From positions 1-64,000 of the forward strand of contig JANYDC010000125.1 in the NCBI GenBank assembly GCA_025359965.1: a stretch of 64,000 nucleotides of DNA, in the 5' to 3' direction. A program made the translations under genes and the position numbers. Shown one piece after another: positions 4,028-22,306 of the stretch. The notes below the pieces were generated by a model that searched no databases, was not told the origin of the DNA, and worked only from the letters and a program-made list of their open reading frames with translations. This stretch comes from Pedosphaera sp. GTDB taxonomy: Bacteria > Verrucomicrobiota > Verrucomicrobiia > Limisphaerales > SXQI01. Positions within the stretch are counted from its first letter, which is position 1; each line of letters begins with the position of its first letter.

Positions 4028-4033
4028 CACGTT

Positions 4034-4456: not shown

Positions 4457-4460
4457 GCTC

Positions 4461-4570
4461 GATCGTTGAATTAACGAGTTCAAGTACCCCAGCATGGGCG
4501 ATTCAACAATGCTATCCGCCCCAAGGGGGGGAGATTACCCAAGTACCCTCGAGATCGTTGCCTAGTTAAC
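4461..4570 (+). repeat. Pair of short direct repeats beside the recombinase remnant
   Basis: The octamer GATCGTTG occurs at 4461-4468 and 4553-4560, each followed within a few bases by a TTAAC string, and CAAGTACCC occurs at 4481-4489 and 4540-4548. They lie in the non-coding gap between the immunity gene and the 3' end of the truncated tyrosine recombinase. They could be remnants of a recombination site or chance; the repeats are short. Confidence 0.3.
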
Positions 4571-4607
4571 ATACCTCCCAACGCGATAGCGGCTCACTAA
4601 CTCCGAC

Positions 4608-4913
4608 TCAATACTCCACCTTAAACGTCGGCGAATCCTCCGGCCTACTCAACCGCGCATCGTAGAGCCTGGTCGTCGAAATATTCGCGTGTCCCAGCCA
4701 CTCCTGCACCTTGGCAATGTCGGCATTGTGCTCCAGGGCGTTGGTGGCCGCTGTTTTCCTTAGCGCGTGCGGACCAAATCCCTCCACTGAAATACCCACT
4801 TCCTTGGCGTACTTCATTACCACGTTGCGATACACCGAGCTGCTCGTCAGTCCCGTTTCCATTTTTCCGTCCGGACGTTTGAAGAGCGTGACCAACGGTC
4901 TTTTCACTGCCAA
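4608..4913 (-). pseudogene. Tyrosine recombinase (integrase), C-terminal catalytic fragment
   Basis: Only the last 101 codons are present, reading from a TTG at 4913. Counting from there, the fragment keeps HxxR (His49, Arg52), the GHANIST box with His75, and the nucleophile Tyr84, with normal spacing (23 and 9 residues), and it ends with [10 protein letters not shown]. The N-terminal DNA-binding domain and the first catalytic Arg are missing, so it cannot be an active recombinase alone. The 5' break falls at about 4860-4905, exactly where RHS coding sequence begins on the other strand. The element that this integrase served has been cut by, or has delivered, the third RHS cassette. Confidence 0.85.
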
Positions 4914-6724: not shown

Positions 6725-6767
6725 AGTGAAGCAGCAAAAGATTTTTTAATCAAAACCCAAGATTAAA

Positions 6768-7316
6768 ATGAACGGTGCTAAGTTGTTTTTCATTGTTGAT
6801 CCAGAAAATGGTGCACACATGTTGCCCGACGATGATACAGGGTTAGTGTGTCCAGAATGCACCAGATTGCTGAATTGTAATTATATTAATCCAAAATTTA
6901 AAGTTCCAAAAAAGTGTCCTGATATATCTCACACTTATGATGGATTCCAAGTGGTTTCTCAAAAATTTCGAGAGATAATTGAAACGGAAGGGTATCAAGG
7001 TGTCGAATTTATTTCGATACCTGCATGTCCATTTTTTTTAATGCGTGTAACGAATGTTCTTGAGTTTAGTAGACCTTCGGAACTCAAGTTCGAAGATCTT
7101 TGCCATTCCTGTGGAAGATACGCATCTGTTTGGGGCCTTCTTCACGTAAAGGTAATCGTGCCTTTTTCGGGTGTGTGTGAGGGATTATATCGGAGCGATA
7201 TCGAGATGGGTTACCGACAATCAATAGCCCCTATATTAATCGTCCCAGAAGCAACGAAATTAACGCTTAAAAAAAATAAATTAACAGGCGTGGAGGCGAT
7301 GCCTGCTCCTGTCTGA
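6768..7316 (+). CDS. Cys-rich (zinc-ribbon-like) candidate immunity protein for RHS tip 3
   Basis: A 182-residue protein beginning with ATG 43 bases after the third RHS cassette. It has a CPEC pair near residues 28-31 and a second pair, CHSCG, near 111-115, which together could bind one zinc ion. No signal peptide or membrane segment is visible. The gene is strongly AT-rich compared with the RHS core. I recognise the general layout from proteins encoded behind RHS nuclease tips but cannot name the family. Inferred role: cytoplasmic inhibitor of the HNH-like tip. Retention next to a frameshifted toxin gene would fit an immunity gene kept for protection from siblings. Confidence 0.55.
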   Translation: MNGAKLFFIVDPENGAHMLPDDDTGLVCPECTRLLNCNYINPKFKVPKKCPDISHTYDGFQVVSQKFREIIETEGYQGVEFISIPACPFFLMRVTNVLEFSRPSELKFEDLCHSCGRYASVWGLLHVKVIVPFSGVCEGLYRSDIEMGYRQSIAPILIVPEATKLTLKKNKLTGVEAMPAPV

Positions 7317-7598
7317 ACTTAACACACTGAGCTAGGGGGTGGCGAGTTGACCAACTCCTGTTACAAGGGGTTCTTGAACTTGGAAAGCCAACCATCGCAC
7401 GCCAAGTTTCAAAAAAATCGGCGTTTGGGCGAGTGGGTTGCCCCAAGTATTGTTGTTCGTTTCGCGAAATGTGGTCTCGGTTAGGGCTGATTCTGTAGAA
7501 CGCAAAGCTCATCCCGCAGTCGCTGGGTTAACCAGGGAAGTACATTGGAGATTGTTTCACTCTGTTCCCTCCGTCTCGTCTTCGGTAAAGGATCCGGC

Positions 7599-8297
7599 TT
7601 AGTGCGAGCGGCGGGCCAGTACTAGGTATTGCGCGCCTAGGGGTAAGCGGCAGACGGCTGGTTCTGTGATGCGCATGAAGGAGAGGGAGCGCGGGAAGAT
7701 GAATTGGAAGGTGGTTTCGAGGATTTCAAAGTTGCCTTGACGCAAAAGGCGTTTGGCCTCCCGGGGCATCAGGGTGATGGCATCGCGGTCGAAGGGGATT
7801 TTGCTCATGACGTAGCGTGTGCCAGGGTTGAGGGGGTTGTTTTCCCAGAAGGCAAAGATGCCGCCGGGTTGGAGGTTGGCGTGGATTTGGCGGATGCACT
7901 CGGGTCGTTCCGCTGGGGGGATGTGGTGGAATACGCCGTTGCAGAAGGCCAGGTTGTAGGGGCCGTGTTGGGCGATGCCGGAATTGGTTATGAAATGGGC
8001 CGGGAAGTTTTTGGAGAACTCGCGGCGGGCGACTTCCAAGGAGGCCTCGGAGGGATCGCAACCGACCAGAATTTCTGGGTTGAGGGTGGAGCAGAGGTAG
8101 GGGGTCGCGCTGCCGGTGCCGCAGCCAAAATCGAGGATGCGCCGAATGCTGCCGCCGTGTCGGTTGAGGCGTTGGTGGAGCCATTTCACCCTGTGGGAGG
8201 CGAAGAAATCCTTGCTCTCGCCGGAGACGGAAATCCCTTTGGCCAAGGCCTCCTCGTAGTTTTCGGAGTATTCGTCGAACTCGGATTTGGGTTGCAT
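7599..8297 (-). CDS. Class I SAM-dependent methyltransferase
   Basis: A 232-residue protein with the SAM-binding motif I LDFGCGTG at residues 55-62, an acidic loop GCDPSEAS, and the post-I FCNGVFHHIPP segment of the Methyltransf_11/25 type. It lies nine bases downstream of a membrane glycosyltransferase, so both are probably cotranscribed. The acceptor is unknown; a polyprenyl-linked sugar, a quinone-like compound or a glycan are possible. It starts with ATG at 8297. Confidence is high for the fold and low for the substrate. Confidence 0.85.
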   Translation of the reverse strand: MQPKSEFDEYSENYEEALAKGISVSGESKDFFASHRVKWLHQRLNRHGGSIRRILDFGCGTGSATPYLCSTLNPEILVGCDPSEASLEVARREFSKNFPAHFITNSGIAQHGPYNLAFCNGVFHHIPPAERPECIRQIHANLQPGGIFAFWENNPLNPGTRYVMSKIPFDRDAITLMPREAKRLLRQGNFEILETTFQFIFPRSLSFMRITEPAVCRLPLGAQYLVLARRSH

Positions 8298-8306
8298 GGC
8301 GGAGGC

Positions 8307-9521
8307 TTATTTCCGGGCGATGGTCAGGATGCTGAGAAGGAAGCTGGAGAGCATGCCTTGAACGCCGAGGGAGGTGAGGGTTGCGCCGGGGATGACGATG
8401 CGCATGGTATGGGCGTAGTCCAAGCGGCCGAAGCCGGTGGCTTTCCAAGTAAGGACGGCCCACGCCAGCAGGGAAAGGCCGACGGCCAAGACCACGGCGC
8501 TAATGATCAGACCGCGTTCGAGAGAGAAGAAATTGATGACGGCTTTTGAGGTGGGGTCGGGCGGGTGAAAGCCTTCGCTCATGGCGAAAGCCTTGGCGAA
8601 GGTAGCAAAAAACAAGGCCTGACATCCGCACAGAATGGCGAGGCTGGCAAAGAGCAGGGTGTGTGCGTCGAAAGTTACGCCGCTGATGGATATGCCGGGA
8701 AGAGCCAGGGAACAGCCGAGAAAGCCGATGGCGATGAGGAGGGTTCCCGGGAAGATGAACAGCCACTTCGGGGTGAAGAGCAGGTAAAACCGTAGGGTTC
8801 GCCAACCGTCCCTGAAGGTCTTGAGGTGAGGGGGATGGGATTTGCGGCCGTCCGGGTGGAGGGTGATGGGCACTTCCTCAATCTTGGCCTTGAAGAGGGT
8901 GGCCTTGATGATCATTTCGGTGGCGAATTCCATTCCTGTGCAGCGCTGGTCCAGGCGGTGGAACAGATCCTTGCGAAAGCCGCGCATGCCGCAGTAGACG
9001 TCGTTGATCTTGGACCCGAACCATAGTTTGGCCAGAAAGGTGAACATGGGGTTGCCAATCCAGCGATGGCTGGTGGGCATGGCTCCGGGAAGGACGGTGC
9101 CGCCGCCGCCGGGGAGCCGGCAGCCTTGGACCAGATCGGCTCCGGCGACGAGTTTTTGGTAAAATTTGCCCAGCTCCAGGAAATTATAACTGTCGTCGCA
9201 ATCGCCCATGAGCACGAATTCGCTGCGCGCGTGGTTTATGCCGCCCATGAGGGCATTGCCGTAACCCTTGGCCTGGACGTGAACGACGCGAGCGCCCAGA
9301 CTTTCGGCGATCTGGACGGAGCTATCGGTGCTGCCGTTGTCGGCGATGACGACTTCGCCGTCGATGCCGTTTTCCATGAAGGCCCGCAAGGCTTTGCCGA
9401 TGCAGACCGCGATGGTATCAGCCTCATTAAGACAGGGCATGACCACGCTTAGCTGAGGCTTGGGGCCTTCGCTATGGGGCGTATTGGGAGCAGGCTGTGC
9501 GGTTCTGCTAATCGTGTTCAT
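8307..9521 (-). CDS. Membrane glycosyltransferase family 2, dolichol-phosphate sugar synthase type
   Basis: The 404-residue protein has an N-terminal GT-A domain with PCLNEAD (29-35), ADNGSTD (60-66) and the acidic GDCDDSYN string, followed by about four hydrophobic segments from residue 250 to the end. This architecture matches GT2 enzymes that load a sugar from a nucleotide donor onto polyprenyl phosphate at the inner face of the membrane. The gene is first in a two-gene unit with a methyltransferase and is divergent from the large polysaccharide operon. The start ATG at 9521 gives a short, low-complexity N-terminal tail before the GT domain. The sugar is unknown. Confidence 0.85.
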   Translation of the reverse strand: MNTISRTAQPAPNTPHSEGPKPQLSVVMPCLNEADTIAVCIGKALRAFMENGIDGEVVIADNGSTDSSVQIAESLGARVVHVQAKGYGNALMGGINHARSEFVLMGDCDDSYNFLELGKFYQKLVAGADLVQGCRLPGGGGTVLPGAMPTSHRWIGNPMFTFLAKLWFGSKINDVYCGMRGFRKDLFHRLDQRCTGMEFATEMIIKATLFKAKIEEVPITLHPDGRKSHPPHLKTFRDGWRTLRFYLLFTPKWLFIFPGTLLIAIGFLGCSLALPGISISGVTFDAHTLLFASLAILCGCQALFFATFAKAFAMSEGFHPPDPTSKAVINFFSLERGLIISAVVLAVGLSLLAWAVLTWKATGFGRLDYAHTMRIVIPGATLTSLGVQGMLSSFLLSILTIARK

Positions 9522-10120
9522 TTAAGATAACTTCGCATCATTATGCATCGGACGGGCAGTTTGAGAAGCATTCTCAGGCGGGGGGAAAGATGGCCGGTGC
9601 CCAAGGGTAGGCGAACGGAAGCGGTAGATGCGGGTGGGGTGGTTGGTCCATGTGGGATCGGTGAAGGGTAAAGAACTTCAACTGAGATGGGGACTGGGTT
9701 CGTCAATGTTTTGGAGGGTTTATGCGCGGGATTTCGGTAAGTGATGGTAGCGGTGCGATGACGGCGATTTCGGCTGGCACCGTTGTATGGCTAACCTAGG
9801 AGAGAAGTGGGGTTCAACATACAAGGGGTTGAAGGCAATTGTGGGGCTGCCACCCAGGGTAGTCCCGCACTGGTGGAACAACCGCTTAATTGAACTTCAG
9901 ATCAGGAGGGCCGCTTTGCGGTCTGGGCTGATTGAGGTAAATCCCTTCAGGATTATCCGAAAGGGGGCGAGGTGCCGCATGGGCAGATCGTGACACAAGA
10001 ATGGAACTTGCGAGGAGGGCGGGATTTTGGTTCATTCAATTCATATTAGCCGAATCGCACAGTTTGTGCGTTTGCCTCGCCGCCATAGCGTGCCGGCGGG
10101 TAGGGAGAGTTTTTTGATCC
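9522..10120. other. Divergent intergenic region without a convincing gene
   Basis: About 600 bases between the divergent glycosyltransferase and the GbsR-like regulator. A 68-codon frame at 9787-9993 is possible but has no recognisable domain and I do not call it. The right end carries a dyad (10056-10070) and a TTTTTT string just before the regulator start. The region must hold the promoters for both directions. Confidence 0.5.
10056..10070. promoter_or_regulatory. Dyad CGCACA-N3-TGTGCG, candidate operator of the regulator
   Basis: A perfect 6-bp inverted repeat with a 3-base spacer, centred about 58 bases before the ATG of the GbsR-like gene. Outside the half-sites the pairing continues with AA/TT after one mismatch. 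Placement suits autoregulation and control of the following polysaccharide operon. Binding is inferred. Confidence 0.45.
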
Positions 10121-10639
10121 ATGTCCGAAATCCAGTCCAAGACCAGACTTGAGATGGTCGCAGCGACCGGGCGGTTATTCCAACTGCTCGGGCTGCCGCG
10201 TTCTACGGGGCAGGTTTATGGCCTGCTGTATCTGTCGGATATCCCCCTGTCGCTTAACGTCATGGCGCAGAAAATCGGGCTGAGCAAGGGGAGTGTCAGC
10301 ATTGCCACCAGGCATTTGGTTTCTTGGGGTGCAGCGCGGACGGTGTGGGTGCAGGGATCTCGGCAGGATCATTTTGAGGCGGTGGGGGAGCTTCGTGCGG
10401 TGCTGGAGCAGGTTTATCGCGAAAAGGTGAGGGTCCGTATGAAATCCTCGAGCCAAAAGGTGGGAGCCATACTAAAACTGGTGGAAGAGGATGAGGCCGG
10501 CGGCCAACTGGACAAGAGTGAGGCGGCCTTTTGTCGCAAGCGGGTCAAAACACTGGAATCCATGCATCGTGAGATCAGTGGATTGACCCCCTTTATCGAG
10601 GCATTTTTGAGTTTGAGTCCATCGGAGGTGGAGGTATGA
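10121..10639 (+). CDS. GbsR/MarR-family transcriptional regulator
   Basis: A 172-residue cytoplasmic regulator. The winged helix-turn-helix spans about residues 15-90: GQVYGLLYLSDIPLSLN, then GLSKGSVSIATRHLVSWGA and a basic wing leading to the GSRQDHFEAVGE strand, which is the characteristic GbsR arrangement. The C-terminal part is helical and probably forms the dimer interface. It is the first gene of the polysaccharide operon: its TGA overlaps the ATG of the next gene by four bases. It therefore probably controls its own operon, perhaps through the dyad at 10056-10070. The signal it senses is unknown. Confidence 0.85.
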   Translation: MSEIQSKTRLEMVAATGRLFQLLGLPRSTGQVYGLLYLSDIPLSLNVMAQKIGLSKGSVSIATRHLVSWGAARTVWVQGSRQDHFEAVGELRAVLEQVYREKVRVRMKSSSQKVGAILKLVEEDEAGGQLDKSEAAFCRKRVKTLESMHREISGLTPFIEAFLSLSPSEVEV

Positions 10640-11412
10640 GCTTCACGAAACCCGGGCGTGATCCCAAAGTCTGCATTCTGGGCAGTTCGGTGGGGTTCAA
10701 AATGCGGCCTGCGCGGACGTGCGCTGAGGAGCTGACCTATGGGGAAATTTTGGAACAGAGGGGATGTAATGTTAAAAACGTTTCGCGTGCGGCAGCGATG
10801 CTCAGCGAGCAATTTGGTCTGCTGGACGATGATGTGATCACCTTTTTCCCCAGCCATGTCATAGTCCACTGCGGAGTGGTGGAAATCTGTCCACGTAGGG
10901 TGTGGCGGCGGCCTAATAACGCTACCGTCTTAAACTATTACGGCAACGCGTTTTTTGATGAGCCTTATGTGTTCAGCAACTGGAAATCCAAAAGCCGCGT
11001 TTTTGGGCTGCGAGTTTTCAATGGTCTGACGCGGCGTTTGATGAAATTGCTGCATAAGGATTGGCCTTGGATGGATTCAGACCGGTTTCTGACGGTGGTG
11101 GATGCGGTCATCAGCCGTGTGCTGAAGGAAACGGGAGCGCAAGTGGTGGTGTGTGGCATCACGCCATGCAACGAGCGGGTAGAAAAATCGCTGCCCGGCG
11201 CGGGCGCGGCCATTAATTCCGCCAACCTAATGCTGGCGAAACTAAGCGAAAACAAGGGAAGCCGGATTAAATACTTGGATGTGGAGAGGCTTTTTAAGAA
11301 TCGAGACATCAATATGCTGGCTCCCGATGGAATTCATTTTTCCGCAGCCGGGCATGCGTTGATGGCGGAGCATCTGGCGGAAATGATCATTGGACCCAAG
11401 CCGTTGGCGTAA
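10636..11412 (+). CDS. SGNH-like hydrolase of the polysaccharide operon
   Basis: The 258-residue protein begins with ILGSSVGF, a block I motif in which Ser18 would be the nucleophile, and ends with DGIHFSAAGH (about 231-240), the block V Asp-x-x-His. A central VVVCGITPCN strand fits block III. There is no signal peptide, so it is cytoplasmic or acts on a lipid-linked intermediate. SGNH proteins in glycan loci usually add or remove O-acetyl groups. The gene overlaps the regulator by four bases and lies six bases before the flippase. The substrate is not known. Confidence 0.75.
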   Translation: MSFTKPGRDPKVCILGSSVGFKMRPARTCAEELTYGEILEQRGCNVKNVSRAAAMLSEQFGLLDDDVITFFPSHVIVHCGVVEICPRRVWRRPNNATVLNYYGNAFFDEPYVFSNWKSKSRVFGLRVFNGLTRRLMKLLHKDWPWMDSDRFLTVVDAVISRVLKETGAQVVVCGITPCNERVEKSLPGAGAAINSANLMLAKLSENKGSRIKYLDVERLFKNRDINMLAPDGIHFSAAGHALMAEHLAEMIIGPKPLA

Positions 11413-11418
11413 AAAATC

Positions 11419-12969
11419 ATGGCTCTACCCAAGAAGGAAATTGCGGCGAATATCGGTGGCCAACTGGCCAGCGTGCTCGTGAATTTTTTGACGGTGCCCT
11501 TCATCATCCGCTATCTGGGCCCGGAGGCTTACGGATTGGTGGGGTTTTTCATGTCGCTTCAAGCGGTGACGGCCATTTTCGATTTCGGCTTGAGCACGGC
11601 GGCCAACCGCGAGATTAGTCGTACGCTGGCGTCGTCGAGCGATAAACAAAAGACCTGGGCGATGATCCGCACCATGGAGCTGTTCTACGTGGCTGGAGGG
11701 GCGATCCTGTTTTGCATTCTTTGGTCCATATGCGACTGGATGGCCAGGGAATGGCTTCGTGCGGACAAGCTTTCTCCCACTGATATCAGGTTTTGCCTGA
11801 TCGCGGCGGCTGGGACTTTGGGGCTAAGGTGGCCTATTTCGCTTTATGGCGGGGTTTTGCGAGGGCTTGAGGCGCAGGTGCAGTTAAACACGTGGTTTGT
11901 CTTCTTTGTGGTGGCCAGAGGCGTTGGGTCGGTGCTGGTTATGGCTTTCATTTCCACGGATGTGAGGGCTTACTTTCTGTATCAACTTCTTTTGGGCGGA
12001 CTGGAAACCCTTGTGATGTCCTGGGTGAGTTGGGGCCGGGTGGGAAGGGATGGACTGTGGAAGAGCCGATTTGAATGGAATGTTTTGCGAGGCGTTTGGA
12101 AGTATGCCTTTAACATTGGGTGGGTATCGCTGTTTGCGGTGGCATTGAAGCAGGTGGATAAAATGGTGGTTTCCAAATTACTGCCGCTGGATCAGCTGGG
12201 TGTTTACACTACGGCGACGGTGGCGAGCATGGGTCTGGCGAAGATCGGCACGCCGATCCAATCGGCGGTTTTCCCGCGGCTGACCCGTTTGTTTACTGTG
12301 GCGGACTGGCCGGGGCTCTCGAAAACATTTCATGAATCCGTGCAGCTGATTTCCTTCCTGAGCTGCCCGCTTTGTTGCATCATGATCTTCTTTGCCCCGG
12401 AGGTTTTGCTGGCTTGGACGCACAATGAAGCGATGGCGCGAAATGGTGCGGCCACGATGGCGTTGATGTCGGTTGCTATGTTTTTTAATTTGACCATGAG
12501 TATTCCTTTTGTGTTGCAGCTGGCTGCAGGGTTGACCTGGCTGCCGCTTTATACAAACGCCATCGGTGCGATCGCACTGGTGCCGCTCACGTACTACATG
12601 GTGGCGAAGTTTGGGGTGGTGGGGGGGGCGTCAGCCTGGCTGGTGTTTAATGTGTGCTATTTCCTGCTGGTTCCCCAAGTGCTTTTCCGTCACATCCTGA
12701 AGGGAGAAACTAAGGCTTTCTATCTTCGAGACACGCTGCCGTTCATGGCTCTTTCGGCGTTGATTTTTGTGGTGGCCAGATATTTTGCACCAGAGCAGAA
12801 GGGTTTTATGCCGGCCCTCATTTACGCCGCGCTGGGAGGGGTGGTGTATGGGGTGCTGGCCTTTAAAGTCTCACCCTCGCTCCGTGAAGTTTTGAAAACC
12901 CTGCCCGGCCCCTGGTCCGCGCGCCAGCGGGCGTCCCGCGTCAAGCCCACCATTCCTGGAACACTCTAA
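11419..12969 (+). CDS. Polysaccharide flippase, Wzx-like (MOP superfamily)
   Basis: A 516-residue integral membrane protein with about 14 hydrophobic segments. The start matches Wzx/MATE-like flippases: an N-terminal GGQLASVLVNFLTVPFIIRY stretch, then YLGPEAYGLVGFF and GLSTAANREISR. Its predicted task is to move the undecaprenyl-linked repeat unit across the inner membrane. It sits in the middle of the glycan operon, six bases behind the SGNH gene and 25 bases before the NeuB-type gene. Together with the ligase/polymerase at 21035 it supports a Wzx/Wzy- or WaaL-type export route. Confidence 0.9.
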   Translation: MALPKKEIAANIGGQLASVLVNFLTVPFIIRYLGPEAYGLVGFFMSLQAVTAIFDFGLSTAANREISRTLASSSDKQKTWAMIRTMELFYVAGGAILFCILWSICDWMAREWLRADKLSPTDIRFCLIAAAGTLGLRWPISLYGGVLRGLEAQVQLNTWFVFFVVARGVGSVLVMAFISTDVRAYFLYQLLLGGLETLVMSWVSWGRVGRDGLWKSRFEWNVLRGVWKYAFNIGWVSLFAVALKQVDKMVVSKLLPLDQLGVYTTATVASMGLAKIGTPIQSAVFPRLTRLFTVADWPGLSKTFHESVQLISFLSCPLCCIMIFFAPEVLLAWTHNEAMARNGAATMALMSVAMFFNLTMSIPFVLQLAAGLTWLPLYTNAIGAIALVPLTYYMVAKFGVVGGASAWLVFNVCYFLLVPQVLFRHILKGETKAFYLRDTLPFMALSALIFVVARYFAPEQKGFMPALIYAALGGVVYGVLAFKVSPSLREVLKTLPGPWSARQRASRVKPTIPGTL

Positions 12970-12994
12970 CCAAGACCGCCAACTCAATTCTCAT

Positions 12995-14044
12995 ATGAAT
13001 CGACAACTGACCATTAATAATCAAGTCATCAACGACGACAGCGACTGCTATGTGATTGCCGAAATCGGGCACAACCACATGGGCAAGCTCGACGTGTGTA
13101 AAGAGCTGTTCCGTGTGGCCAAGACTTGTGGTGTTGACGCCGTGAAGCTGCAAAAGCGCGACAACAAATCGCTCTATACCAAGGGGCTGTACAATCAGGT
13201 TTACGACAACCCAAACAGCTATGGGGACACTTACGGCGCGCATCGCGAGGCGCTGGAGTTTGGCAGGGCGGAATACCTGGAGCTGGCGGCCTATGCCAAG
13301 GAGCTGGGAGTGACCTTCTTCTCCACGGCGTTTGATTTCAAGAGCGCTGATTTCCTTTCCGAGCTGGAGATGCCGTTGTACAAGATTGCCTCGGGCGATC
13401 TGAAAAATGTGCCATTGTTGCGCTATGTGGCCAAGTTCAAAAAGCCCATGATCATCAGTACCGGCGGGGCTTCGTTGGAGGATGTGAAGCGTGCGTACCA
13501 TGAAATCATGGCCATCAATCCGCAGTTGGCCATTTTACAATGCACCGCAGCTTATCCCTGTGAATTCAATGAGTTGAATCTGCGGGTCATGTCCACTTAT
13601 CGCGAGCAGTTCCCCGACGCCACCATCGGTTTGTCAGACCACGACAACGGCATCGCCATGTCGGTCGCAGCGTATGTGCTGGGATGCCGTGTGATCGAGA
13701 AACATTTCACCCTCAACCGAGCTAATCGCGGCACAGACCATGCCTTCTCCCTGGAACCCGAGGGCATGCGGAAAATGGTGCGCGATCTTCGCCGCACGCG
13801 GGTGGCTCTTGGCGACGGGGTCAAGCGGACCTTCCCCAACGAGGTCAAGCCACTGTCCAAGATGGCAAAGTCCGTCCGGGCGGTCCGCGATCTGCCCGCC
13901 GGCCAGGTGCTTTCGTGGAACGATATCGCGCTCAAATCGCCGGGCGACGGCCTGCCACCTTACGAGGTGGACCGCATGCTGGGCAAAAAGCTGGTCAAAC
14001 CGATGGCGGAGGATGATCTCATCCAGTTTGATAACCTCGCCTGA
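12995..14044 (+). CDS. neuB: NeuB-type nonulosonic acid synthase
   Basis: The 349-residue enzyme has a TIM-barrel NeuB domain with the signature EIGHNHMG (23-30), DAVKLQK, the STAFD box and IEKHFTLN, then a C-terminal SAF/antifreeze-like domain (about 285-345). The family condenses phosphoenolpyruvate with a hexosamine, hexose or their 6-phosphate to give a nine-carbon keto-acid. The immediate neighbour is a KdsC-like phosphatase and a CMP-sugar synthetase follows further down; this set resembles the three-enzyme route to KDN or Neu5Ac through a 9-phosphate. No UDP-GlcNAc epimerase gene is in the window. The exact sugar cannot be read from the sequence. Confidence 0.88.
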   Translation: MNRQLTINNQVINDDSDCYVIAEIGHNHMGKLDVCKELFRVAKTCGVDAVKLQKRDNKSLYTKGLYNQVYDNPNSYGDTYGAHREALEFGRAEYLELAAYAKELGVTFFSTAFDFKSADFLSELEMPLYKIASGDLKNVPLLRYVAKFKKPMIISTGGASLEDVKRAYHEIMAINPQLAILQCTAAYPCEFNELNLRVMSTYREQFPDATIGLSDHDNGIAMSVAAYVLGCRVIEKHFTLNRANRGTDHAFSLEPEGMRKMVRDLRRTRVALGDGVKRTFPNEVKPLSKMAKSVRAVRDLPAGQVLSWNDIALKSPGDGLPPYEVDRMLGKKLVKPMAEDDLIQFDNLA

Positions 14045-14054
14045 GCCCGGGAAT

Positions 14055-14561
14055 ATGGCTAAATTCCTTCCTTATCCTGAGGTCATTCCACAGGTGCGCC
14101 TGCTGGTCTTGGATTTCGACGGCGTGTTGACCGACAACGCCGTCTATGTTTCACAGGATGGTGTTGAGATGGTCCGCTGCTGGCGGAGCGACGGGCTTGG
14201 GCTCGCCCAACTGCCGGGCATTGGCATTGATGTGCTGGTCGTTTCGACCGAGGTAAACCCAGTGGTCAGCGTGCGCTGCCGCAAGCTGAAACTGACCTGT
14301 GTGCAGGGGGTGGAGGACAAGGTTGCGAAGTTGGGCCAGATACTGATCGAACGCGGTCTTGAGTGGCGAGACGTGGCCTACATGGGCAACGATATCAACG
14401 ACGAAGGCTGTCTCAAACTGGCATCTTTGCCCATTGTTCCCCAAGATGCGCATCGGGCGGTTGTGCCTCTGGCGTTATGGAGGACCGAGGCGCGGGGTGG
14501 GTATGGAGCAGTGCGCGAGGTCTGCGACGAAATGATCAGAGTGAGGAGCAAGCAGAGATGA
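14055..14561 (+). CDS. KdsC-like HAD phosphatase (nonulosonate 9-phosphate phosphatase candidate)
   Basis: I place the start at ATG 14055, ten bases after the NeuB stop, giving 168 residues; a longer frame begins inside neuB and is unlikely. HAD motif I is LDFDGVLTDN and motif IV is MGNDINDEGC, as in the cap-less C0 subfamily that includes Kdo-8-phosphate and KDN-9-phosphate phosphatases. These work as tetramers and remove the phosphate from the acid formed by a KdsA or NeuB enzyme. Placement right after NeuB points to a nonulosonate 9-phosphate. The last four bases overlap the SDR gene (ATGA). Confidence 0.85.
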   Translation: MAKFLPYPEVIPQVRLLVLDFDGVLTDNAVYVSQDGVEMVRCWRSDGLGLAQLPGIGIDVLVVSTEVNPVVSVRCRKLKLTCVQGVEDKVAKLGQILIERGLEWRDVAYMGNDINDEGCLKLASLPIVPQDAHRAVVPLALWRTEARGGYGAVREVCDEMIRVRSKQR

Positions 14562-15370
14562 GCGACACGTTGTTCTCGGTGGAAGGAAAAGTGGCGGTGG
14601 TGACCGGCGGGCTTGGCCAGCTGGGCCGGCAGTTCTGCCTGTCACTCGTCGCACGCAAGGCGCGCGTGGTCTGCATGGACCGGAGAACTCCGGCCGAGCT
14701 GGTGGAAATGAAGTTCGGTGCGCTGGCTGAGAAGATGATGTTTATCGAGGCCGACGTCACCAAACGTGAATCATTGGAGGACGCGCTCAAGGCCATCGAG
14801 GCGAAGTTCGGCACTCCTGAAATTCTCGTCAACAATGCCGGGCTGGATTCCCCGCCGGGAGCTCCTGCCTCGGAGACGGGGCCTTTTGAGGAATATCCTG
14901 AGTCCTCATGGGACAAGGTGATGGAGGTTAATCTGAAGGGAGTATTTCTCTGCTGCCAGGTTTTCGGTGGTGCGATGGCGAAGGCCAGCCGCGGCTCGAT
15001 CATTAACATCAGCTCAATTTACGGTGTGGTCTCGCCGGATCAACGAATTTACGAGTTCCGCCGCAAGGAAGGGGTGGCCTTCAACAAACCGGTGGCGTAC
15101 TCGGCCTCCAAATCGGGCATTTTAAACCTGACCCGTTATCTGGCCACGTATTGGGCACCCAAGGGCGTGCGGGTGAACACACTGACCTTTGCCGGAGTGG
15201 CCAACAACCAGCCAGCGGAGTTTTTGGCTGGCTACGAGCCTAAGGTGCCGCTGGGCCGCATGGCGCGAGAGGATGAATACAACGGGGCCATTATTTTTCT
15301 TTCCTCGGATGCGTCGTCGTATATGACGGGTTCGAACATGATTTTGGATGGCGGGTTCACCGCCTGGTAA
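14558..15370 (+). CDS. PtmA-like short-chain dehydrogenase/reductase
   Basis: The start ATG at 14558 overlaps the previous stop and gives 270 residues. NAD(P) binding is shown by TGGLGQLGR, followed by NNAG, the Ser of INISSIYG and YSASK with the catalytic Tyr and Lys. The SSIYGVVSPD segment and the NLTRYLATYW region resemble PtmA-type reductases found in legionaminate/flagellin glycosylation loci. The reaction in those pathways is not fully settled, and here the substrate is unknown. It could modify a precursor or the finished nonulosonic acid. The gene lies inside the operon, eight bases before the aldehyde dehydrogenase. Confidence 0.8.
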   Translation: MSDTLFSVEGKVAVVTGGLGQLGRQFCLSLVARKARVVCMDRRTPAELVEMKFGALAEKMMFIEADVTKRESLEDALKAIEAKFGTPEILVNNAGLDSPPGAPASETGPFEEYPESSWDKVMEVNLKGVFLCCQVFGGAMAKASRGSIINISSIYGVVSPDQRIYEFRRKEGVAFNKPVAYSASKSGILNLTRYLATYWAPKGVRVNTLTFAGVANNQPAEFLAGYEPKVPLGRMAREDEYNGAIIFLSSDASSYMTGSNMILDGGFTAW

Positions 15371-15378
15371 TTTTTGAT

Positions 15379-16845
15379 ATGCCAACGCTCCCTTCGCTTC
15401 TGCCCAACTGGATTGGCGGCCAACAAACCTTGGCAGCCAGCAATGAGTCTTTCGACAAGCTCAAACCGCACGACGGCACTTCATATTGCCGCGTCACGCG
15501 CTCGGGCCAACCGGAGATTGATGCCGCTGTAGCGGCCGCGCGTGCTGCGCAAGTGGCGTGGGCGGATACGCCGGCGGTGAAGCGCGGTGAGATCCTGCAC
15601 GAGATTGTGCTGCGGATGAAGGCGGCGACCGATGAAATAGCCCGGGTCGTGGCCGATGAGACCGGCAAATCATTTAAGGACGCCAAGGGGGAAACGGGCG
15701 GCGCAATTCAGTTGGGCTTGTTCTATGCCAGCGAAGGTCAGCGGCTTTACGGTCGCACCACCACGAGTGGGACGCCTTATAAATACGCCATGACCGTGCG
15801 GCAGCCTATCGGAGTGGCCGGATTGATAATCGCGGCGAACACGCCGATCGCGAATGTGGCGTGGAAGGTTTTTCCGGCGCTGATATGCGGCAATGCCGTC
15901 GTTCTCAAAGCAGCAGAGGATACCCCGGCCACCTCGTGGCTCTTCGCCAAACTTGCGCATGAGGCTGGATTGCCGGCGGGGGTTCTGAATGTGGTGCAGG
16001 GTCTTGGTTCGGAGGCGGGAGCCGCATTGGTGGCGCATCCGCAGGTTGGGGTGGTGAGTTTCACTGGTTCGACCGCGGTAGGTAAACTGATCCATCAACA
16101 GGTGGGCGCTCGTTTGGCACGTCTTTCGCTTGAGTTGGGCGGCAAAAACGCCTTGGTTGTTTGTGACGATGCCGATTTGGATCGTGCGGTCACGTGGTCT
16201 CTTCTCTCCGCTTTCAGCAATGCCGGCCAACGTTGCGCGGCAGGCAGCCGGTTCATTATTTTTGAAAGTGTGTACGACCGCTTTAAGGAACTGCTTTTGA
16301 AGCGGACGGCTCAACTGAAAGTGGGTCCGGCCGACACGGATGATCTCGGGCCGGTGATTAACGAACGCCAGCTTAACAACATGGTTCGCAGCGTTAGTCA
16401 GGCTGTGGAAGGAGGCGGATGCCTGCTTTCCGGAGGGGGACGTTTGAACGACGAAGCCCATGCCAAGGGCTTTTACATGAGTCCCACTTTGCTGGAAGGG
16501 ATTGATCCCCAAGCTGAGATTTCGTGCCGAGAGTTGTTTGGGCCTGTCGCTATTCTCTACAAAGTACGGGATTTTGATGAGGCTCTGGCTCTGACCAACA
16601 ATTCGCCTTACGGCCTGACTGCCTGCATTCACACCAAGAATTTTCACCGGGCCACCAGATTCTGCGAAAAAGTGCAGACTGGTGTTGCTGTCGTAAACGC
16701 GGGAACGTTTGGCAGCGAGCCGCACATGCCTTTTGGCGGTACCAAGCTCTCCGGCAATGGCTCACGCGAGCCGGGCACCGAGGCTCTTAACATCTATTCA
16801 GAGCTTAAGGATATTTACCTCAACATCGACCCCGCCCAACTTTGA
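15379..16845 (+). CDS. NAD(P)-dependent aldehyde dehydrogenase
   Basis: A 488-residue ALDH-superfamily enzyme with the LELGGKN box containing the general base Glu252 and the catalytic Cys286 in NAGQRCAAGS. Also present are the cofactor-binding FTGST motif and the C-terminal MPFGGTKLSGNGSREPG region. It oxidises an aldehyde to an acid. ALDH is not part of the known Neu, Leg, Pse or KDN routes, so its presence between an SDR and the CMP-sugar synthetase suggests an unusual precursor or a modified product. It may also simply be a catabolic helper in the operon. The stop overlaps the next gene's TTG start. Confidence 0.88.
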   Translation: MPTLPSLLPNWIGGQQTLAASNESFDKLKPHDGTSYCRVTRSGQPEIDAAVAAARAAQVAWADTPAVKRGEILHEIVLRMKAATDEIARVVADETGKSFKDAKGETGGAIQLGLFYASEGQRLYGRTTTSGTPYKYAMTVRQPIGVAGLIIAANTPIANVAWKVFPALICGNAVVLKAAEDTPATSWLFAKLAHEAGLPAGVLNVVQGLGSEAGAALVAHPQVGVVSFTGSTAVGKLIHQQVGARLARLSLELGGKNALVVCDDADLDRAVTWSLLSAFSNAGQRCAAGSRFIIFESVYDRFKELLLKRTAQLKVGPADTDDLGPVINERQLNNMVRSVSQAVEGGGCLLSGGGRLNDEAHAKGFYMSPTLLEGIDPQAEISCRELFGPVAILYKVRDFDEALALTNNSPYGLTACIHTKNFHRATRFCEKVQTGVAVVNAGTFGSEPHMPFGGTKLSGNGSREPGTEALNIYSELKDIYLNIDPAQL

Positions 16846-17576
16846 AGCCAGACATCATTGCCCTCATTCCAGCGCGCGCCGGTTCCAAGCGGGTTCCGGG
16901 AAAGAACGTGCGCGTTCTCGGCGGGCATCCGTTGATAGCATACACTATTTGTGCCGCCCTGGATTCGGGCATTTTTTCGCGAGTGATTGTGTCCACGGAT
17001 TCGGAGGATGTGGCGCAGCTCTGCCGTGGTTACGGGGCGGAAATTCCATTTCTGCGGCCTGCCGAATTCTCGGGCGACACTTCGCCGGACATCGAGTGGC
17101 TGCATTACACTTTGGGCCGCCTTAAAGAGGAGGGTCGTCTTCCTGAGGCTTTTTCGCTGCTCCGGCCGACCAGCCCCTTCCGTCTGCCTGCCACCATCCA
17201 GCGTGCCTGGGCTCAGTTTCAATCAATCGAAGCTGATTCATTGCGGGCGGTGGAGCTCTGCCGACAGCACCCGGGTAAAATGTGGGTCATGGAAGGCGCC
17301 TTGATGAAACCCCTCATGAACGATGGCGGCAAGAATCCGCCGTGGCATAGTACGCCTTATCAGGCACTGCCGGTGGTTTACGCCCAGAACGCGAGCTTGG
17401 AAATCGCCTGGAGCAAGGTGGTTTTGGAAGGCGGCACCATTGCGGGAAAGCGTGTCATCCCATTCATCACCCACGAAACCGAGGGATTCGATATCAACAA
17501 GCAGGACGACTGGATGCTTGCTGAGGTTTTACTTGAACGTGGCATGGCCACCCTTCCCGCTGTACGCACTATTTAA
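16842..17576 (+). CDS. neuA: CMP-nonulosonate synthetase (acylneuraminate cytidylyltransferase)
   Basis: The 244-residue protein shows the cytidylyltransferase motif IPARAGSKRVPGKN (9-22), STDSEDVA, the LLRPTSPFR segment and DINKQDDW near the C-terminus. It activates a nonulosonic acid with CTP, releasing pyrophosphate, so that a transferase can use it. The start is a TTG that overlaps the TGA of the ALDH gene by three bases (TTGA), so translation is probably coupled. It sits four genes after neuB and before the transketolase. Distinguishing NeuA, PseF and LegF types is not possible by eye. Confidence 0.87.
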   Translation: MKPDIIALIPARAGSKRVPGKNVRVLGGHPLIAYTICAALDSGIFSRVIVSTDSEDVAQLCRGYGAEIPFLRPAEFSGDTSPDIEWLHYTLGRLKEEGRLPEAFSLLRPTSPFRLPATIQRAWAQFQSIEADSLRAVELCRQHPGKMWVMEGALMKPLMNDGGKNPPWHSTPYQALPVVYAQNASLEIAWSKVVLEGGTIAGKRVIPFITHETEGFDINKQDDWMLAEVLLERGMATLPAVRTI

Positions 17577-17597
17577 CCCATCAGGGACACACATCTC

Positions 17598-19577
17598 ATG
17601 CCAGACCTTCAATTCATTCCCACCAGCGAGTTTGACCGTGTTCGCGCACAAGTGACCGATCGTTTTCAGCGCCTTCATTTGGTCGCAGAAATGGCGCGTC
17701 TGAACACGCTCGTTGAAATCAAGAAGGCGGGTTCCGGCCATTTGGGATCAAGCCTCAGCGCCATGGATCTCGTGACCTATCTTTACCTTGAGGGCATGAA
17801 CACCCTTCAGGTGGGTTGGGCCAGCCCGCAACGAGATATTTTTTTCTCCTCCAAAGGTCATGACGTGCCCGGACTATATGCGCTGCTTTTCGGTCTGGGT
17901 GCGGTGGCCGAGGAAAAATTTCTTAAACTACGGCGCTTGAATGGTCTGGATGGCCATCCCGATGTGCATGTCCCGGGAATGGAAGCCAACACCGGCTCAT
18001 TGGGCATGGGCATTTCCAAAGCCCGAGGAATGTCATGGGCGAAAGCCCATCGGGGTGATGGCGGGCGGGTTTACGTGATGACGGGCGACGGTGAGTTGCA
18101 GGAGGGGCAGATTTGGGAGTCTATGCAGACCGCCTCTCATCACCGCTCTGATGTCACGGTGATCGTGGATCACAACAAACTACAGACAGACCTGCCTGTT
18201 GAGGAAATTATTTCCCTGGGTCAGATTGAAGCCAAGATGCGTTCATTCGGCTGGGAAGTGGCCCGTTGCGACGGCCACGATTTCATGGCCATTGACGCGG
18301 TGCTGGCCCGATTTGCCACAATGAGCGGGCCCAAGGTTCTGATTGCCGACACCATCAAGGGCCGCGGCATTTCGTTCATGGAGAAGATCTCTGAGTGCGC
18401 CAACCTGCAGGGAAAGTATCTTTGGCACTCAGGCGCTCCTGCCGACGAGCCATTCACGCTGGGTTTTGAGGAGATTCTGGCCCGCATCAACCGTCTGCTC
18501 GCGGGTCATGGTTTTACGCCCGTCACCCTCAAGGCTGTGCCCGCGGAGAACCTGCCGAAGCTGGGCGTGAGCAAACAATACATTGCGGCTGCTTACGGCG
18601 AGGAATTGGTGGCTCTTGCGGCTGAGGTTCCTCAACTGGTGGTCTTGGATGGCGATCTTTCCGCTGACTGCAAGGTGCGTGGCTTCCATCTGAAGTATCC
18701 GGAGCGGTTTATCGAGAATGGCATTGCTGAGCAGGACATGGTTTCCGTGGCCGGCGGCATGGCACGGCAGGGATATTTGCCGGTCTGCAATTCCTTCGCC
18801 ACGTTTCTGACGGCGCGGGCCAATGAGCAGATTTACAATAATGCCTGCGAGGGGACCAAGATCATTTATGCCACACACTTCGCCGGATTTATTCCCGCTG
18901 GCCCCGGCAAAAGCCACCAGAGCGTGCGTGATATTTCCCTGATGGCGTCTGTGCCTGGAATGACCGTGTTCCAGCCCTGTTCCGCTGATGAAGCCAGATT
19001 GGCTACGCGCCACGCCGTGCTGGAAGCGACGGGCAATTTCGCCTTGCGGCTGAATATCGGGCCCAGCCCGCGCGAAATCGCGCTTCCTGCCGATTACCAT
19101 CTCCAACCGGGCCGTGGGGCGATTCTCCGCGAGGGCAAGAATGTCGCGCTGATTGCCTATGGACCGGTTATGTTGCACGAGGCTCTGAACTGCGCCGAAA
19201 TGGCGGTTGGCTCTTCGCTCAACCTCGCGGTCATCAACCAGCCTTGGCTGAATGTTTTTGATTTGGACTGGGTGATGTCGATTTTGGAAAAATACCACAC
19301 GCTTTACCTGATTGATGATCACCTGCTCACTGGTGGCATGGGAGAGCGTTTTCTGGCCTTTGCTGCTGAACACGATTTGTTGGCGGGATCGCGCCTGCGC
19401 AGAATCGGTCTCGACCGTCTCCCGGCCTGTGGTACTCCGTACGAAGTGCTGAGGGAGCATCGCATGGATGGAGCATCCCTATTGCACAGGATCAGGGAGG
19501 ACCTTGAGCTCGAACAGGAGGCTGCGGCTGGCGGCGGTGATCAGGCCGTGTTCAACACTCTCGAGGCAGCGCAGTAG
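17598..19577 (+). CDS. Transketolase, full-length, within the nonulosonate operon
   Basis: A single 659-residue chain joins the thiamine-diphosphate N-terminal domain (GHLGSSLSAMDL; GDGE at 163-166, then DHNKLQTDLPV) and the pyrimidine-binding domain (ENGIAEQDM with Glu378), followed by the C-terminal domain. The family moves a two-carbon ketol unit between sugar phosphates. The gene lies 21 bases after the CMP-sugar synthetase and two bases before the transferase gene, so it is part of the glycan operon rather than a central-metabolism copy. It could make an unusual-length sugar for the NeuB step or supply precursor. The enzyme call is firm; the role is open. Confidence 0.9.
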   Translation: MPDLQFIPTSEFDRVRAQVTDRFQRLHLVAEMARLNTLVEIKKAGSGHLGSSLSAMDLVTYLYLEGMNTLQVGWASPQRDIFFSSKGHDVPGLYALLFGLGAVAEEKFLKLRRLNGLDGHPDVHVPGMEANTGSLGMGISKARGMSWAKAHRGDGGRVYVMTGDGELQEGQIWESMQTASHHRSDVTVIVDHNKLQTDLPVEEIISLGQIEAKMRSFGWEVARCDGHDFMAIDAVLARFATMSGPKVLIADTIKGRGISFMEKISECANLQGKYLWHSGAPADEPFTLGFEEILARINRLLAGHGFTPVTLKAVPAENLPKLGVSKQYIAAAYGEELVALAAEVPQLVVLDGDLSADCKVRGFHLKYPERFIENGIAEQDMVSVAGGMARQGYLPVCNSFATFLTARANEQIYNNACEGTKIIYATHFAGFIPAGPGKSHQSVRDISLMASVPGMTVFQPCSADEARLATRHAVLEATGNFALRLNIGPSPREIALPADYHLQPGRGAILREGKNVALIAYGPVMLHEALNCAEMAVGSSLNLAVINQPWLNVFDLDWVMSILEKYHTLYLIDDHLLTGGMGERFLAFAAEHDLLAGSRLRRIGLDRLPACGTPYEVLREHRMDGASLLHRIREDLELEQEAAAGGGDQAVFNTLEAAQ

Positions 19578-19579
19578 GC

Positions 19580-20968
19580 ATGATGAATAAACCCGTCATC
19601 ATCGTTTCCGTCTCGCTCAGCATGGTAGTGAGAAATTTTTTCTCCACCAGCGTCATGACCCGGATGCGCGAATCCTTTGATGTGGTGGTGCTCTCAACGC
19701 CGAAAGTCGCGGAAACCATCCGTCGCCTGGGCTATGACCAGGGCATCACGCTGGAAGTCATCGATGTTGGGCCGGAGCCGCGGTTCTGGAAGGCGCTGAG
19801 GCATTTCAAAAAGAAGGTCCACATGGAAAGCCGCCAGAGTGCCACCGAGGCCATTTGGGAGAAATACCACAAGCGCCCTTTGTACCAGCGCGTTGGCGGC
19901 AAAGTGATCAAGCGGCTGATCCATTTGGTAAATCCGTTAAAGCTTCAAGGCCTGATTGAGAATGTCGAAACGGCTGTGACTCGGGACCGCTCGCTCAGTG
20001 CGATGTTCGAGAAATATAAGCCCACGATGGCCTTGCTGTGCATCACATCCGCGCAGCATGACGAAATTTTTGTGCGCAATTGCCGCGCATTCAATGTGCC
20101 GGTTGCCTACATGGTGATGAGCTGGGACCACCTTTCAGCCAAAGTGGTGCTGCATCTGGATTTTAAACTGATTTTGGTCTGGAACGAGCACACCCGTCAG
20201 GAAACCCTGCGCACTTATCCCTGGTTCACGGCCTCCCAAGTTAAAGTGGTTGGCATCCCGCATTTTGATTCCTATGCCGTAAAACCCGAGCTGACGCGGG
20301 AAAAATGGTGCCAGCGTTTCGGGCTTGATCCCTCCCGTCGTACGCTTTTGTTCAGCACCATGCCGCAGGTGCGGCATGATCAACAACACGTGGTGATCAA
20401 AACGCTTCTGGACGAAATCAGACCCGGAGGACGCCTGCCGGCCGACCTCCAAATTCTGATCAAGTGCCATCCATTTGACAATTTCACCGGGTACGCCGAT
20501 GTGATCTCTGGCAAACCGGCTGGACTGCTCGGCACCACTTTCAAAGGCAAGGGGCAGACTGAAAACTGGGAACCTTCCGACAGCGAGCTGACCGACTCCC
20601 GCAACGCCCTTTATTTTTGCGACGTTAACATTAATATTTTCAGCACGGTCACGATTGAGGCCGCCTTTTTTAACAAGCCGATCATCAGTCTGGCCTTCGA
20701 TCCCCTGCCTATTGCGGCGGGACGCGTCCCCTGCCGCCAGTACTATAATTGGGATCACTTCAAACACATTGTGGATAAAAACGCCACGATCATGGCGGAG
20801 AGCTACGACCAGCTCTTCGACGCCATCAACACCAGCCTCACCAACCCTGCTTACAAATCCGCCGAGCGTCAGGTGCTGGTGGATACTTATATGGGATGCA
20901 CGGTTGGCACCGGCAGCCGGCACATGGTTGAAGAACTCGTGACTTTCGCCCGGCAAATAAATGGGTAG
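19580..20968 (+). CDS. GT-B-like glycosyltransferase/glycerophosphotransferase-like protein
   Basis: A 462-residue soluble protein with no clear membrane segment. The second half carries LIKCHPFDN and FSTVTIEAAFFNKPIIS, a His-Pro plus Ser-Thr-x-x-x-Glu-Ala arrangement seen in CDP-glycerol glycerophosphotransferases and related GT-B folds that include some capsule sialyltransferases. It directly follows the transketolase gene. In this context it may transfer the CMP-activated nonulosonic acid to the glycan. The family is not certain, and I would not assign a gene name. Confidence 0.6.
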   Translation: MMNKPVIIVSVSLSMVVRNFFSTSVMTRMRESFDVVVLSTPKVAETIRRLGYDQGITLEVIDVGPEPRFWKALRHFKKKVHMESRQSATEAIWEKYHKRPLYQRVGGKVIKRLIHLVNPLKLQGLIENVETAVTRDRSLSAMFEKYKPTMALLCITSAQHDEIFVRNCRAFNVPVAYMVMSWDHLSAKVVLHLDFKLILVWNEHTRQETLRTYPWFTASQVKVVGIPHFDSYAVKPELTREKWCQRFGLDPSRRTLLFSTMPQVRHDQQHVVIKTLLDEIRPGGRLPADLQILIKCHPFDNFTGYADVISGKPAGLLGTTFKGKGQTENWEPSDSELTDSRNALYFCDVNINIFSTVTIEAAFFNKPIISLAFDPLPIAAGRVPCRQYYNWDHFKHIVDKNATIMAESYDQLFDAINTSLTNPAYKSAERQVLVDTYMGCTVGTGSRHMVEELVTFARQING

Positions 20969-21034
20969 GATGAAATCAACTTTGAATGCCGAGAGTAAAA
21001 TGAGTGCCGCGTCAGGGCGGCGGGAGGAAACGGC

Positions 21035-22306
21035 ATGAGCAAAGCCTATTGGCTGATCATTTACGTTTGTATTCTCCATTTCGGTCCTTTGCTGAACATT
21101 TTCGGGATGCTTCCGGGCGGCCGGGTGTATGCCGTCACCACGGTTGCCAATCTGATCGCCGCCTATTTTACCTTGGATTACTTGGGGACAGCCTCCAAAG
21201 CCCGTGGTAAGAGTTTGACGCCTTTGGACATGCTGGTGACCGGGTATCTCGTGTGGTCTGCCCTCTCAATCATACTCTACTTTCAGGCAAATAATCCTAC
21301 GGCACTGGAGGGTTACTGGTACGGCACCCACACTTTCACCCTGCCCATTTGCGCCTATTTCATCGCCAAACATCTCACCTCGGCGCAATTGATGAAGGTG
21401 TTGCGTTTTGTGGTTTACACCAACGCGTTCGCGATGCTCATTGGCATCTACCTTTTCTCCGCGAGACCGGACTATTACACCGAATTTATGCGCGATGCCA
21501 CGAACCGCATGGGCGACCTGGAGGATTGGCAGATATACAACCGCATGCAGTCCTATTTAGGCTCCACTGCGGTCGGAATCGTAAGCGCCCTCAGCATCGT
21601 TTTGATCCGGATAACCAATCCTTCGGTGATTTTTGCGTTTTCAGGGGTGGCGCTTTTTGCCTCCTCAGTCCTGCTTTCGCGCCAACGCGGCGGCATGGTC
21701 GGCGCCGCCGTTGCCCTGATCTATTTTCTGGTTTTTCACAAAGGCCGCCGTCTGATGGGCATCGTTGTTATTGGATTGGGTTCGCTGCTTGCCGCTTTGA
21801 TGCTTACCACTGTGGACAATCAGCACGAAGGCGTGGTTGATAATATCTTCAGTAGGTTCACTGAGGTTACGTATGTTTTTGACGAACATCGCTCCGGTTA
21901 CACAGTCGTTTGGGATTATATCACAGATTTTCCTTTTGGTGTGGGCGTGGGTGCCACGGGTGCCAGCTCTGATGGCCTTCAAGATCGCGGTAAAGTGGTG
22001 GATGCGAACTTCATGCGCATTCTGGCAGACTTGGGGATTCAAGGTCTGGCTCTTTTCATTGTTGTGATCGTGGCAGCGGGTCTGAGTGCCCTCAAACGCA
22101 AGGACCGGCTTGGATGGATATCAGTTCTTGTCATTTACGTCGTAGTCGCCTTGGGCACCAACACCTTGGACAGCCACTATGTCTCCCAGCTCTTTTGGAT
22201 ATTCTTGGCAACGATGGATACCCCTGAGGTGCAGCCTGAAGCCGTGCAGATCACTGTACTGGCCGATGAGCCGCTCAGCGGTGAGCCCGCTCCCTCTTCA
22301 GCCTAA
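21035..22306 (+). CDS. O-antigen ligase/polymerase family membrane protein
   Basis: The 423-residue protein has about 10-12 hydrophobic segments and a large loop at about residues 255-345 containing FDEHRSGYTVVWDYI and GVGVGATGAS, typical of the Wzy_C/WaaL domain in which Arg and His residues act on the undecaprenyl-linked glycan. It either polymerises repeat units or links glycan to an acceptor at the periplasmic face. It is the last gene of the polysaccharide operon; pyrH begins 120 bases later. The start ATG at 21035 is preceded by GGGAGGAAA. Confidence 0.8.
   Translation: MSKAYWLIIYVCILHFGPLLNIFGMLPGGRVYAVTTVANLIAAYFTLDYLGTASKARGKSLTPLDMLVTGYLVWSALSIILYFQANNPTALEGYWYGTHTFTLPICAYFIAKHLTSAQLMKVLRFVVYTNAFAMLIGIYLFSARPDYYTEFMRDATNRMGDLEDWQIYNRMQSYLGSTAVGIVSALSIVLIRITNPSVIFAFSGVALFASSVLLSRQRGGMVGAAVALIYFLVFHKGRRLMGIVVIGLGSLLAALMLTTVDNQHEGVVDNIFSRFTEVTYVFDEHRSGYTVVWDYITDFPFGVGVGATGASSDGLQDRGKVVDANFMRILADLGIQGLALFIVVIVAAGLSALKRKDRLGWISVLVIYVVVALGTNTLDSHYVSQLFWIFLATMDTPEVQPEAVQITVLADEPLSGEPAPSSA

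Follow-up and report, generated by a model that had tools for sequence, protein, structure and literature searches.

A distinct transketolase subfamily with a probable dedicated role in a bacterial glycan pathway

Results

The window, i.e., the whole stretch of 64,000 nucleotides from Pedosphaera sp. that we analyzed, contains a complete ORF of 659 aa on the forward strand (17598 to 19577) encoding a three-domain transketolase in which the Pfam domains Transketolase_N, Transket_pyr, and Transketolase_C all score over their cut-offs. At the head of the gene run to which it belongs, all on the forward strand, lies a small regulator-like ORF (10121 to 10639; HTH_IclR at 20.6 bits, under the cut-off), followed by profile matches to an SGNH/GDSL-type hydrolase (10636 to 11412) and a Wzx-like polysaccharide flippase (11419 to 12969). 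Next come a NeuB-type synthase with a SAF domain (12995 to 14044; profile match and alignment), a type of enzyme that uses PEP and an aldehyde, and a HAD phosphatase of the KdsC/Kdn-9-phosphatase type (14055 to 14561), which carries the DFDGVLT and GND motifs, matches NCBIfam models under their curated cut-offs, and has no Pfam match. The following SDR (14558 to 15370) is gluconate-5-dehydrogenase/KduD-like by family matches under curated cut-offs, and its best solved match is 6uh2, an entry without a specific function name. An ALDH with LELGGK and GQRC motifs (15379 to 16845), for which the best matches, under the cut-off, are 2-ketoglutaric semialdehyde dehydrogenases, and a CMP-sugar-acid synthetase, i.e., a PseF-like cytidylyltransferase by family matches (16842 to 17576), precede the transketolase. 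Downstream of it lie a putative glycosyl/glycerophosphotransferase-like protein (19580 to 20968; CDP-glycerol transferase-like at 20 bits and BFO_1060 glycosyltransferase at 43 bits, both under cut-off) and an O-antigen ligase/polymerase-like membrane protein (21035 to 22306; Wzy_C at 35 bits).

From the flippase to the glycosyltransferase-like ORF, the genes form a same-strand run in which every gap is −4 to 25 bases, and the Wzy-like ORF begins 66 bases past the glycosyltransferase-like ORF. The original prediction, made from this DNA alone, held that gaps of 21 and 2 bases tie the transketolase to the operon, and we confirm both: 21 bases separate it from the CMP-sugar synthetase upstream and 2 bases from the next ORF downstream. 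Of the two flanking genes named in that prediction, the CMP-sugar synthetase stands, whereas family support for the glycosyltransferase is weak and under cut-off. A scan for promoters and terminators did no better than shuffles. Elsewhere in the window, an RHS-repeat ORF with an unmatched C-terminus (5195 to 6724) is followed by a small ORF without a Pfam match (6768 to 7316); possibly, these represent an RHS-type protein with its partner gene.

By the original prediction, a dedicated function of the window enzyme would be refuted if its gene were the only transketolase gene in the genome; this is not the case. A search of the genome (assembly 92% complete) with PF00456 found a second full transketolase of 689 aa on contig C43 (L001, 1312 to 3381) and also a match to a pyruvate dehydrogenase-like protein on contig C28; PF02779 matched both transketolases and three further ORFs, the size of which suggests genes for DXS and 2-oxoacid dehydrogenases. 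Among 39 kin genomes, 27 match the C43 enzyme at 65 to 79% identity, either whole or as two pieces, and these 27 include each of the three genomes from the same genus. By contrast, the 39 kin genomes contain no close relative of the window enzyme: the best full-length match is 32% identical, and partial N-terminal matches reach 41%. Among 387 genomes of the same phylum, 14, the window's own included, match the window enzyme at E ≤ 1e-60, the best other being 37% identical. Because the C43 enzyme is kept across the lineage while the window enzyme lacks close kin, C43 is the inherited transketolase and the window gene looks acquired. We infer a central role of the C43 enzyme from its conservation. 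This enzyme is itself divergent, with Gln at the position of R358 in E. coli TktA and a very long branch.

The window enzyme belongs to a family with a broad distribution. Of 139 matched relatives, 80 loci with 48 to 59% identity over nearly the full length were kept; they come from Chloroflexota, Myxococcota, Thermodesulfobacteriota, Gemmatimonadota, Ignavibacteriota, Bacteroidota, Planctomycetota, and others, as well as one methanogen. A quickly built tree, in which some of the long outgroup branches raised warnings, unites 76 of the loci and the window (77 rows in all) in a single clade at an SH-aLRT support of 100, to the exclusion of canonical and split enzymes. Phyla are mixed within this clade, as expected under horizontal transfer. 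A further canonical or split transketolase was found in 19 of 20 picked carrier genomes. The exception is a methanogen MAG (L092), in which PF00456 matches the family member alone and the cassette is divergently arranged.

The genomic surroundings of these genes are recurrent. In 43 of the 80 loci, NeuB lies no more than 8 kb from the transketolase. The same range includes a cytidylyltransferase in 47 loci, the SDR in 38, an ALDH in 34, a gene of the KdsC type in 22, and a class III aminotransferase in nine. Typical gene orders are NeuB-KdsC-SDR-ALDH-NeuA-TKT, NeuB-ALDH-NeuA-TKT, and SpsF-TKT-aminotransferase-SDR-KdsC-NeuB, and the aminotransferase of the cassette is an Aminotran_3 protein that is glutamate-1-semialdehyde-aminomutase-like. 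The ALDH and the class III aminotransferase occur together in none of the 80 loci; the 43 NeuB-bearing loci comprise 29 with the ALDH, nine with the class III aminotransferase, and five with neither. Eight genomes with the aminotransferase cassette gave zero ALDH matches at E ≤ 1e-120. Similarly, the six genomes searched for which the locus has no ALDH (L045, L046, L078, L079, L082, and L103) yielded no close ALDH homolog, and inspection by eye gave no clear candidate for another aldehyde-using enzyme in the gap at five of these loci (L045, L078, L079, L082, and L103). A DegT-type aminotransferase recurs in 13 of 81 clustered gene sets. By Pfam, there is no isomerase among the recurring core genes or in ten other recurrent neighbor families.

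In the Myxococcota MAG L068, three NeuB and three NeuA matches lie within 20 kb (2431 to 21019). In the own-phylum genome G190, a different glycan cluster (L030, 621 to 12582) combines NeuB and a CMP transferase with an SDR, a DXS-like enzyme, an ATP-grasp protein, and a split transketolase in which R358 and R520 are kept; this may be another case, of independent origin, of a transketolase employed in such a setting.

At 30 of the 80 loci, many of them on short contigs, the transketolase is alone. In each of the 13 such genomes searched, the SDR is encoded elsewhere; it adjoins NeuB in 11, and in the other two the region is cut by contig ends. In all nine Ignavibacteria-type genomes among these 13, the aminotransferase adjoins the distant SDR, with no transketolase there. 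A housekeeping role of the solitary Ignavibacteria-type copies is ruled out, as all seven such genomes searched have a canonical transketolase. The SDR was detected at E ≤ 1e-55 in 20 of 20 genomes selected by the transketolase, with surroundings read for all but three of them, vs. 1 of 194 own-phylum genomes, i.e., the window's own, in a control that covers a single phylum and scores up to 13 candidates per genome. Three Chloroflexota carriers (L145 to L147) have an SDR-NeuA-KdsC-NeuB locus separate from a NeuB-ALDH-NeuA-transketolase locus, with the other NeuB type.

Active-site residues were read in the numbering of TktA, the E. coli transketolase, with which the window enzyme shares its three domains and the ThDP site. 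The alignment comprises the 77 rows of the tree; L046, L084, L108, and L117 were left out because their full-length frame was not picked (L117 has one stop). We take the ThDP and proton-relay residues of TktA to be H26, H66, H100, D155, E160, N185, H261, E411, and H473. All those checked are kept in 77/77 rows and in the four other loci when read pairwise; the ThDP site is thus intact. The positions of the sugar-phosphate pocket (R358, S385, and R520) and the adjacent D469 are changed throughout: the family has Asp at 385, Pro at 469, and Ile at 520 in 77/77 rows as well as, pairwise, in the four left-out loci, and column 358 is without Arg in every row, the window having Ala. Column 461 reads Tyr, Phe, or Leu, with a His one residue earlier that is alignable by a one-residue insertion, so a loss of H461 is uncertain; in the displayed Chloroflexota rows, the residue directly past column 358 is Arg. 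Among 19 canonical or split controls from the same genomes, 17 were usable (L157 has a truncated ORF, and for L164 the wrong ORF was taken), and in these S385, H461, D469, and R520 are each kept in 17/17 and R358 in 15/17, with Lys in two. In 13 split or fused enzymes of the own phylum, R358 is kept in 12, R520 in 10, D469 in 7, and S385 in 6. By this alignment, the sugar-phosphate pocket is largely lost in the window subfamily.

The same positions have been targets of enzyme engineering. In passages of PMC5073344 and PMC3657141, S385 of TktA is described to contact the phosphate of natural substrates and H461 is associated with phosphate binding; the variants S385Y/D469T/R520Q, H461S, and R520V have better activity on nonphosphorylated or aromatic aldehydes. 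Likewise, a passage of PMC7661550 states that changes at R358, S385, D469, and R520 favor aromatic aldehydes. While TktA was altered at these positions by engineers, the natural family has fixed its own substitutions. Both halves of the split-gene transketolase of Carboxydothermus, described in the same passage, are good structural matches; the window enzyme is one chain rather than two.

NeuB and its neighbors bear on the nature of the sugar. According to passages of PMC6795526, Arg314 in the SAF domain of NeuB places the N-acetyl group of ManNAc. In the window NeuB, this position is Ser. Among 45 NeuB rows, the motif is present in 35 (31 Ser, one Thr, one Ile, and two Arg) and absent in 10, and both Arg rows are other NeuBs of L044 and L068. 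The replacement of Arg314 by Ser in most rows suggests a NeuB substrate without an N-acetyl group, and the presence of a KdsC-type phosphatase points to a phosphorylated one. The NeuB-type synthase, KdsC-type phosphatase, and CMP synthetase, which lie together at 12995 to 17576, make up the gene set of the Kdn pathway. The Kdn/CMP-Kdn pathway described in passages of PMC6200933 comprises the same NeuB-type synthase, 9-phosphate phosphatase, and CMP synthetase, with a NeuB that likewise lacks the Arg. Unlike that pathway, the window cassette adds the SDR, the ALDH (or class III aminotransferase), and the transketolase.

Discussion

Known transketolases belong to central carbon metabolism. In the present case, three lines of evidence, i.e., the second transketolase in the genome, the recurring cassette, and the loss of the phosphate pocket, make it very probable that the window transketolase has a dedicated role in a glycan pathway and not in central metabolism, in agreement with the original prediction.

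Our preferred explanation is that the gene is part of a cassette, shared by horizontal transfer, for a CMP-activated sugar of the 3-deoxy-ulosonic (sialic-acid-like) kind and, with a rough probability of 0.4, that the transketolase tailors this sugar after NeuB has acted. In the scheme that we propose, NeuB would condense PEP with an aldose phosphate, for which mannose 6-phosphate is the probable candidate; as in the known Kdn route, the KdsC-type phosphatase would then take the phosphate off the product. The SDR would oxidize the penultimate carbon (C8 of the C9 acid), giving a terminal HOCH2-CO-CHOH end; the transketolase would take this hydroxyketone end as its donor and split off the two carbons C8 and C9, so that an aldehyde at C7 remains. 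The ALDH would convert this aldehyde to the C7 carboxylate, yielding a 3-deoxy-hept-2-ulosaric acid, or, in the alternative cassette, the class III aminotransferase would convert it to the 7-amine. The cytidylyltransferase would then form the CMP sugar. The exact reaction of the transketolase within this scheme, deduced from genes and residues, is tentative.

Several considerations favor chain shortening. First, gluconate 5-dehydrogenase and KduD oxidize a penultimate carbon, and the SDR, which counts them among its relatives, may do the same. Second, a Fischer comparison gives 8-keto-Kdn, read from C9, the configuration of D-fructose, as needed by transketolase donors. Third, D469 of TktA contacts the hydroxyl at the fourth carbon of the donor, and the ring oxygen on the fourth carbon of an 8-keto-Kdn donor may explain its loss. 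Fourth, the ALDH and aminotransferase replace each other and never occur together, which argues that the aldehyde is a product rather than a substrate of the transketolase. The scheme thereby gives the SDR, the ALDH or aminotransferase, and the transketolase each a job. It is weakened by the five of 43 NeuB-bearing loci with neither ALDH nor class III aminotransferase nearby, by the six searched genomes in which neither the locus nor the rest of the genome gave a close ALDH homolog, by the SDR and ALDH families being too broad to fix a substrate, by the two-carbon unit lacking an assigned acceptor and the direction of a transketolase being unreadable from sequence, and by the one archaeal genome in which the family member is the only PF00456 match.

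In the closest competitor of chain shortening, the enzyme would build, adding a two-carbon unit to a terminal aldehyde or, with a branched chain as the outcome, to a ketone made by the SDR, and the extended or branched acid sugar would then be CMP-activated. It draws on the same genes, transketolases are reversible, and nonphosphorylated acceptors would suit the changed pocket; however, the mutually replacing ALDH and aminotransferase are left without a clear role, and we consider this direction rather unlikely.

Still less probably, the enzyme would be a ThDP carboligase, either DXS-like or decarboxylating, and would place a unit from pyruvate or hydroxypyruvate onto a sugar-acid aldehyde or ketone. 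DXP_synthase_N scores 47 bits in the window enzyme, and a model of its monomer (pLDDT 80.7, pTM 0.73) superposes on DXS over the whole chain, with a DXS-like domain arrangement that human transketolase matches only at about 20 Å rmsd. Because of this arrangement, we draw no active-site geometry from the model, and other donors, e.g., hydroxypyruvate or pyruvate, retain some probability. By sequence, however, transketolase models score 369 bits vs. 174 bits for DXS, human transketolase is the best solved relative, and His26, His66, His100, His261, and His473 of TktA are kept in all 77 rows.

The original prediction had also proposed that the transketolase could provide NeuB with a seven- or eight-carbon sugar as its substrate. 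Position in the operon agrees with this, and known transketolases yield sedoheptulose and octulose phosphates. However, transketolases make ketoses while NeuB needs an aldehyde, the recurrent neighbors checked hold no isomerase, the phosphate pocket is largely lost in all rows, and the phosphatase implies that the NeuB substrate is phosphorylated. Supply of NeuB with a sugar phosphate therefore fits poorly, indeed least among the glycan-linked readings, and is improbable; modification of the sugar once NeuB has acted would fit better. Finally, a spare enzyme of the ordinary kind that became trapped in a glycan locus would account for the kept ThDP residues and is very improbable given the recurring cassette, the distinct clade, the lost phosphate pocket, and the other transketolase in 19 of 20 carriers.

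Tailoring after NeuB, as we prefer, has a partial parallel. In Shewanella, KdnA and KdnB reportedly oxidize and then aminate the tail of an ulosonic acid to make 8-amino-Kdo. The cassette would resemble this pathway in oxidation at the ulosonic-acid tail and, in its aminotransferase version, in amination, but the 8-amino-Kdo pathway has no transketolase and keeps the length of the carbon chain. PtmA and PtmF of the legionaminic pathway were considered as an explanation of the transketolase and rejected, as PtmF is listed as an oxidoreductase. In literature mostly outside subscription journals, this cassette is described neither in the titles and abstracts listed for transketolases together with NeuB or with gene clusters for nonulosonic or ulosonic acids nor in passages of PMC7371886, PMC11766843, and PMC12342839; in the passages of PMC12342839, "transketolase" and "nonulosonic" both occur, in unrelated places. 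Among the matches listed for "ulosaric" and polysaccharide, titles are mostly on plants and algae and name no bacterial pathway. The predicted product is a C7 2-ulosaric acid, the same class as Dha of plants, the biosynthesis of which is listed as unidentified in the parts of the plant literature covered. Known Dha is the D-lyxo form, whereas Kdn would give its isomer, 3-deoxy-L-arabino-hept-2-ulosaric acid, which further weakens the shortening scheme.

Altogether, these findings describe a separate transketolase clade that spans many phyla and is tied to CMP-sugar-acid synthesis, and a natural family with fixed changes where engineers freed TktA from sugar phosphates. The cassette suggests that bacteria make a class of surface sugars for which we found no description in the literature searched. 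It is possible, if doubtful, that the full sequence of SDR-made 8-keto-Kdn, C8-C9 cleavage by the transketolase, and finishing of the C7 aldehyde by ALDH or aminotransferase is a widespread route to CMP-activated 3-deoxy-hept-2-ulosaric and 7-amino sugars. If true, it would be the first pathway for the 3-deoxy-hept-2-ulosaric class, which includes plant Dha, and the proposal offers a testable account of how C7 ulosaric acids may be made.
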